From Chrysoperla carnea (lineage: Eukaryota > Arthropoda > Insecta > Neuroptera > Chrysopidae): a DNA stretch of 64,000 nucleotides. The position numbers were made by a program, and so were the translations under genes. The stretch spans positions 56,522,181 to 56,586,180 of the forward strand of contig NC_058340.1 in NCBI RefSeq assembly GCF_905475395.1, in the 5' to 3' direction. A model generated the notes under the pieces. The model made no database searches and was not told the DNA's origin. It was given only the letters and a program-made list of their open reading frames with translations. Of this stretch, positions 29,001 through 29,412 are shown one piece after another. Numbering within the stretch: the first letter of the stretch is position 1; every line of letters begins with the position of its first letter.

Positions 29001-29412
29001 AACAGTTTATACTATTAACGATTAAGTCAGTTAAAAAAGTCGTAAAATTAAGAACATTCATCAGTCAATTCAGACCGCCCGTTCACATTTTCATCATTGA
29101 AATTTTAATATCAAGAAAGTAAATATATAAATATTTGGAAATAATAAACTCACCAATACGACCATGTCCATGGCTCACATGTCCTCTCAACTTCCTGGTC
29201 TTCTTCTTGTGTGTTGACTGTAAAAATGACACATGTTATGAATTAACTTTTCAATCAAATAAAAACTAAATTTGAATGAAAAATATTTATGAATTTAGTT
29301 TTAAGATACATTTTAAATCGAAAATAAAAGTTTTCTACACACAGCGTGTGTTGATGAAGAAGATATGAAACGATAATGAAAAAATTATTGCAGGATAAAA
29401 ACTGCTTACCAT
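26076..29412 (-). CDS. RpL27A: 60S ribosomal protein L27A (uL15), complete, five exons
   Basis: Structural protein of the large ribosomal subunit. Exons: 29412-29410 (ATG only), 29217-29154, 28951-28854, 27671-27519, 26204-26076. All junctions are GT-AG; the total is 447 nt, or 148 residues plus stop, the usual length for the family. The mature start [20 protein letters not shown], the glycine-rich [15 protein letters not shown] block and the C-terminus GGACVLCA are diagnostic of eukaryotic L27A. The initiator codon alone sits in exon 1, so the first intron directly follows ATG. A pyrimidine-rich stretch at 29438-29425 (CTTCTCTTTTGTAG) fits a TOP-type start. An AATAAA lies on the minus strand at 26061-26056, about 15 nt after the stop. 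Introns 2, 3 and 4 each contain a box C/D snoRNA candidate on the same strand, typical of ribosomal protein host genes. Intron 4 also carries a TA-flanked MITE. Confidence 0.97.
26282..26348 (-). ncRNA. Box C/D snoRNA candidate A in RpL27A intron 4
   Basis: On the minus strand a C box ATGATGA (26344-26338) and a D box CTGA (26287-26284) are 61 nt apart outer edge to outer edge. The stretch before the D box (TTTAATGTCCGAACC) is shared with candidate B in the preceding intron; the 5' halves differ. Conservation confined to the guide side plus both boxes is what duplicated snoRNAs show. It lies about 80 nt upstream of exon 5. Target not identified; the terminal stem is poor. Confidence 0.58.
27173..27371. 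mobile_element. 199-bp MITE with TA target duplication in RpL27A intron 4
   Basis: Terminal inverted repeats GTGTGTCCCCGGATAGAG at the left and, read inward on the other strand, GTGTGTCCCTCCGGATAGAG at the right. Both ends are flanked by TA (27171-27172 and 27372-27373). This fits a non-autonomous Tc1/mariner-like element. A TA microsatellite follows directly (27372-27391). No coding capacity. Confidence 0.75.
27744..27820 (-). ncRNA. Box C/D snoRNA candidate B in RpL27A intron 3
   Basis: On the minus strand a C box ATGATGA (27816-27810) and a D box CTGA (27751-27748) are 69 nt apart outer edge to outer edge. Flanking AATTT and AAATT can form a short terminal stem. Upstream of the D box lies ATTAAATGTCCGAACC, which is nearly identical in candidate A of the next intron, so the two are paralogues. 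I could not match this guide to an rRNA or snRNA sequence I know, so the target is unknown. Confidence 0.6.
29025..29100 (-). ncRNA. Box C/D snoRNA, U43/snR70-like, in RpL27A intron 2
   Basis: On the minus strand the order is C box ATGATGA (29097-29091), guide ACGGGCGGT (29082-29074), D' box CTGA (29073-29070), C' box TGATGA (29063-29058), second guide TTACGACTTTT (29045-29035), D box CTGA (29030-29027). C-to-D span is 71 nt. Guide 1 abuts D' and is complementary to the universal SSU rRNA stretch ACCGCCCGT. The fifth base pairs with the C equivalent to E. coli C1402, which from memory is the Cm1703 (human) / Cm1639 (yeast) site served by U43/snR70. Guide 2 is complementary over 11 nt to the equally universal AAAAGTCGTAA near the 18S 3' end. 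The host gene and strand fit intronic snoRNA biogenesis. The terminal stem is weak. Confidence 0.75.

Follow-up and report, generated by a model that had tools for sequence, protein, structure and literature searches.

Box C/D snoRNAs that guide 2'-O-methylation of one cytidine of the ribosomal decoding centre have been described in human, yeast, Dictyostelium and Arabidopsis, where U43 (SNORD43), snR70, CD28 and AtU43 are assigned to Cm1703, Cm1639, Cm1715 and Cm1641, respectively, all of them the same base (PMC8817022). In yeast, losing Cm1639 plus two other decoding-centre modifications harms growth and small-subunit production (PMC8393311), and human Cm1703 is the partner, in a non-classical contact, of A1832, which carries the m6A of METTL5 (PMC9636144). 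Dual-use snoRNAs also occur in yeast and Dictyostelium, and some of their dual sites have been judged too close together for simultaneous use (PMC8817022).

The nearest described arrangement to the one presented below, in which the two guides of one RNA address the two strands of one helix, is archaeal. The guides of sR17 and sR15 of N. equitans match both strands of 16S helices 28 and 30, and these RNAs have been proposed to act as chaperones (PMC4644070). Guide predictions for helix 44 are relatively sparse in the same work, which reports one in M. maripaludis for the equivalent of E. coli G1494 (PMC4644070).

Here, we analyse a candidate snoRNA of Chrysoperla carnea, located in a window of 64,000 nt (the whole stretch of DNA that was analysed; contig NC_058340.1, positions 56,522,181 to 56,586,180), which we predict from its sequence to be, with high probability, a snoRNA of the U43 type whose second guide is unusual. 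It shares with the U43 family the box C/D architecture and the target base, and with Dictyostelium CD28 the use of the D' guide for this site (PMC8817022), but differs from the family in its host gene, RpL27A, and in an 11-nt D-side element directed to the other strand of helix 44. It shares with sR17 and sR15 the plan of one RNA with two guides for two strands of one helix, whereas those RNAs are archaeal, concern helices 28 and 30, and have two guides that are both predicted to methylate (PMC4644070); the likeness would be one of action rather than of ancestry. Since guiding of Cm1703 is already known, the D-side element is the unusual feature of the locus, and no eukaryotic description of such an element directed to the opposite helix 44 strand was found in a limited search of the open-access literature.

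Results

A box C/D element in intron 2 of RpL27A

RpL27A is encoded on the minus strand, with its start codon at 29412, and joining its exons, with part of exon 4, gives a product of 106 residues that matched L27a/uL15 chains of PDB structures (E 4.7e-57 for the best). The element lies in intron 2 (Table 1), where it starts 56 nt past the 5' splice site and ends 75 nt short of the 3' one; such distances are usual for intronic C/D snoRNAs. A first-pass annotation of this DNA had proposed a double-guide box C/D snoRNA in RpL27A, and its placement is supported, the intron being confirmed by the splicing frame and the L27a/uL15 match. SnoRNAs are known to move from host to host. Taken with the 27 cytoplasmic ribosomal protein genes that host snoRNAs in Drosophila (PMC2246290, in a passage that gives the genes as a count), this makes it not surprising that the host should differ from that of U43.

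Table 1. Features of the snoRNA element and its host intron (window positions).
Feature	Positions	Strand	Basis
RpL27A exon 2	29154..29217	-	splice sites and frame of joined exons
RpL27A intron 2, GTGAGT...TTTCAG, 202 nt, GT-AG, snoRNA host	28952..29153	-	splice sites, joined frame, protein identity
Box C/D snoRNA, C box to D box, 71 nt	29027..29097	-	box order, chance test
C box ATGATGA	29091..29097	-	exact box sequence
D' guide ACGGGCGGT	29074..29082	-	9/9 pairs with own 18S 1988-1996 (guide positions 1-9); position 5 opposite C1992
D' box CTGA	29070..29073	-	exact box sequence
C' box TGATGA	29058..29063	-	exact box sequence
D-side antisense element TTACGACTTTT	29035..29045	-	11/11 pairs with own 18S 2109-2119; guide positions 5-15
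Gap TTAA, 4 nt, between D guide and D box	29031..29034	-	sets A2109 register; duplex not extended
D box CTGA	29027..29030	-	exact box sequence
RpL27A exon 3	28854..28951	-	splice sites and frame of joined exons

Read on the minus strand, the 71-nt span carries its C, D', C' and D boxes in the order first annotated, with a C box of the form RUGAUGA, a D box CUGA and internal D' and C' boxes, and in both rRNA-complementary guides position 5 lies within the duplex. A terminal stem between the C and D ends was absent from the minimum-energy folds of both stretches folded with flanks (2/2), whose energies were near those of shuffled sequences (z of -0.28 and -0.91; z of -1.95 for the core), but many intronic C/D snoRNAs have a weak terminal stem or none, and we do not take the stem as strictly defining. 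The Rfam search that the first-pass annotation had suggested as a check returned no family at gathering score for the whole window. At E values up to 10, over 351 bases, seven listed sub-threshold C/D models overlap the element, the one of lowest E being SNORD49 (E 0.38, with 14.8 bits where the threshold is 37), and these matches are evidence of a general C/D shape and no more. In a further difference from the U43 family, SNORD43 is not among the seven matches listed up to E 10, next to which one same-clan match is unlisted.

Elsewhere in the window, a Pfam domain search of 10 of its 25 open frames, all four of the following matches being on the minus strand, identified splicing factor SF3A2 (30838-31539; PF16835, 7.3e-41), a Caprin-1 dimerization domain (36436-38061; PF18293, 7.8e-38), a BTK motif (14295-14732; 3.8e-08) and DUF4211 (47559-47876; 1.9e-12). 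The frame at 58147-61905 on the same strand, 1252 residues from stop to stop, had no Pfam match at E 0.001.

Both guides fit the species' own 18S rRNA

The first-pass annotation had made its reading depend on the 18S rRNA of this species matching the guides. The 18S of one rDNA copy (L045; 2156 nt; 1753.7 bits to Rfam SSU_rRNA_eukarya), used here as the species' own, fits both without a mismatch, over 9 nt and 11 nt. Each target is present once in it, and the next-best in-register sites reach 7 Watson-Crick pairs for each guide. The modelled duplex energies are -17.4 kcal/mol for the D' guide and -11.2 kcal/mol for the D guide, the latter with one end pair open in the model. An 18S pattern located 163 rDNA places, and in the 10 copies that were read the second target is intact in 10/10; the first target is part of the locating pattern, and its presence in these copies is therefore no test. 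The same copies (L037-L045 and L047) fall into two classes by the spacing of the targets, 124 nt in 6/10 and 121 nt in 4/10, and the guides fit both. The longest match to either guide region was 6 nt in 5.8S and 7 nt in the approximately 1180 readable bases around the 28S start, 4501 of the 7501 bases of the 28S stretch (L046) being read as N.

The D' guide places C1992 opposite its position 5 in an unbroken duplex, and the proposed assignment to the U43/snR70 site holds, this base being the equivalent of Cm1703/Cm1639. This half of the RNA has an ordinary, known job, and by the rules of C/D guides C1992 is predicted to be methylated. For Drosophila, the FlyBase names snoRNA:Me18S-C1831 and Me18S-G1952 would, counted from the 18S 3' end, refer to the equivalents of C1992 and G2113. 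Neither name was found in a search of the open-access literature. In Drosophila S2 cells, 17 of 18 annotated 18S sites have been recovered, and the strings 1948, 1952 and C1831 are absent from the main text of that preprint (PMC13228274).

The D-side element is complementary to the facing strand of helix 44

In a fold of 18S 1985-2125, C1994 pairs with G2116, G1995 with C2115 and C1997 with G2113, in line with the helix 44 pairs C1404-G1497, G1405-C1496 and C1407-G1494 of E. coli. Two pairs of this fold join the two target sites, with 0.96 such pairs expected in the ensemble; the fold is only weakly informative, and it is mainly from established knowledge that the two targets are the facing strands of helix 44. 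The D duplex covers A2111 and A2112, presumably the decoding adenines A1492 and A1493 of E. coli, and its last base, A2119, is presumably human A1832. With the D' guide on C1992, the two guides would thus grip both partners of one decoding-centre contact.

The pairing of the D guide over 11 nt, as first annotated, is supported, and so is the arithmetic by which position 5 falls on the first A of the target, A2109, which we take to be human A1822 and position 1490 of E. coli. It is the step from register to methylation, also put forward in that annotation, that becomes doubtful, because A2109 forms the end pair of the duplex at the helix edge and is flanked by a mismatch. Pairing begins only at position 5, behind a U-U mismatch at position 4 and at best a G-U pair at position 3, which leaves the usual core beside the D box incomplete; productive guide duplexes usually take in positions 3-11. 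We know of no mapped methylation at the equivalent of A2109. The earlier statement that no 2'-O-methylation has been described in this stretch needs qualifying all the same, as the archaeal prediction in M. maripaludis lies four bases along it.

A true double guide, in which the D guide would also direct 2'-O-methylation of A2109, could still draw on a perfect D box, on 11 complementary bases with A2109 in register, and on productive duplexes reported at 7-20 bp (PMC8817022). The table of the same source, which is based on Dictyostelium sites, has no small-subunit row after the Cm1703 equivalent, and given this and the incomplete core we consider methylation of A2109 through the D guide unlikely.

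The joint match, more than the D match alone, argues against chance

In the real window the exact four-box frame is present once, and it appears in 0 of 200 windows simulated with a first-order Markov model; a looser four-box frame occurs once, where the simulated mean is 0.005. This model favours the element too much, since the real window has 15 plain C-to-D frames and the simulated windows a mean of 2.41. When the two regions between the boxes were shuffled 5000 times by mononucleotide and scored by match length against the own 18S, the observed length was reached by 187/5000 for region 1, 36/5000 for region 2 and 0/5000 for both together.

The D match taken by itself is weak evidence. Among the other C-to-D frames of the window (n=20), three overlapping ones reach 9 in-register Watson-Crick pairs to 18S and one reaches 10, so that 11 pairs by themselves are nothing exceptional. 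The 10-pair frame (window position 37982, minus strand, 76 nt) lies inside the Caprin-1 open frame and matches 18S near nt 149; it is taken as chance and serves as a background yardstick. These figures and the 36/5000 shuffles of region 2 speak for a single-guide U43-type snoRNA, in which the D' guide alone would matter and the D-side match would be a relic or a coincidence, as does the single appearance of each of snR70, U43, AtU43 and CD28 in a table restricted to Dictyostelium sites, which would miss targets elsewhere (PMC8817022). The evidential weight lies instead in the joint match to two facing strands: a match confined to the facing strand of the same helix (about 20/2156 nt) cuts the chance, by our estimate, approximately a hundredfold, and no shuffle reached both lengths. 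We rate a D-side match of no consequence as unlikely, level with the double guide.

The paired guide cores (GGGCGGTNTGA and TTACGACTT, 4 to 34 nt apart) occur once in the 559 Mb of the genome searched (337 contigs), with 0 occurrences of the reversed-pattern controls; this uniqueness covers the combination of both cores, not U43-type genes in general. Outside the genome, the paired pattern had 8 matches in viral sequences and 28 in GTDB genomes, the latter all in records with bacterial titles and none with a C-box word upstream. The sole paired match with C, C' and D words together (L001) was judged to be chance. The pattern of the D' half had 6 viral matches and the two 18S patterns had 0, and an 18S query in plasmids returned 2 records, both irrelevant.

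The second-guide pattern gave 10 rows in the own genome, representing 8 distinct sites, one of which accounts for three rows, against 0 and 2 for reversed-pattern controls. Context was read for 9 of the 10 rows, the tenth, on C6, repeating the matched letters of L056, and in these 9 a C-box word stands upstream of the match in the RpL27A element and at L057 and L062, both of which are located in open frames. At a further site, L063 (G000:C4:64826932-64826982, minus strand), the sequence GATGA...TTACGACTTTTACTGA places the same 11-mer one base from CTGA; the upstream stretch tested there holds no C-box word, and the match is probably chance.

Discussion

The best explanation of these observations, to which we assign a probability of about one half, is that the D' guide methylates C1992 and that the D-side pairing is mainly an accessory, non-methylating foothold. 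Under this proposal, the D' guide would direct fibrillarin to 2'-O-methylate C1992 in helix 44 of 18S, while the D-side element would pair with 18S 2109-2119 on the opposite strand; the second foothold would prevent the two strands of the future decoding helix from closing before C1992 is methylated, and the strands would anneal once the snoRNP is released. A duplex that begins only at position 5, behind a mismatch at position 4, fits the role of a foothold. We infer the cellular use of the second pairing, and with it any chaperone role, from the complementarity to two facing strands and by analogy. The idea of the first-pass annotation that the second guide may act as a chaperone is possible, its archaeal precedent being itself a proposal. 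Prp43 crosslinks to helix 44 and has been suggested to release several C/D snoRNAs, in a text that leaves snR70 unmentioned (PMC9196750), and these data are at least compatible with the foothold mechanism.

A more elaborate version would couple two modifications. The D' guide would install the equivalent of Cm1703 while the D guide covers the facing strand as far as the future m6A1832, that base included, and keeps helix 44 open, and release of the snoRNP would then close helix 44 and admit the A1832 methyltransferase, so that the two modifications are ordered. We regard this coupling as a speculative extension, less probable than either the double guide or the single guide considered above.

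The register of the D guide may also have changed during evolution. An ancestral 11-mer beside the D box could have been aimed at G2113, which would come to face position 5 if the 4-nt gap TTAA were removed, and the later gap would have shifted or abolished methylation. G2113 is, we assume, E. coli G1494. The Drosophila name Me18S-G1952 denotes presumably the same G, counted from the 18S 3' end. Together with the register, the guide predicted for the G1494 equivalent in M. maripaludis (PMC4644070) and the presumed match to Drosophila G1952 make a shifted register a real alternative, albeit an improbable one. That the element is a dead gene copy, no longer expressed, would fit the folds lacking a terminal stem and the Rfam result at gathering score, but four exact boxes, two perfect guides, a paired-guide pattern with no second copy in the genome and a host gene without damage in the part read (exons 1-3 and the beginning of exon 4) make it very improbable indeed.

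What the accessory foothold would mean depends on whether the second pairing is used. If it is unused, the element would be an ordinary guide of the U43 type, hosted by an intron of RpL27A. If it is used, a eukaryotic snoRNA would grip the decoding helix by its two strands, a mechanism proposed from archaeal sequences, and Cm1703 and m6A1832, which are in contact in mature ribosomes, would be linked through one assembly factor.
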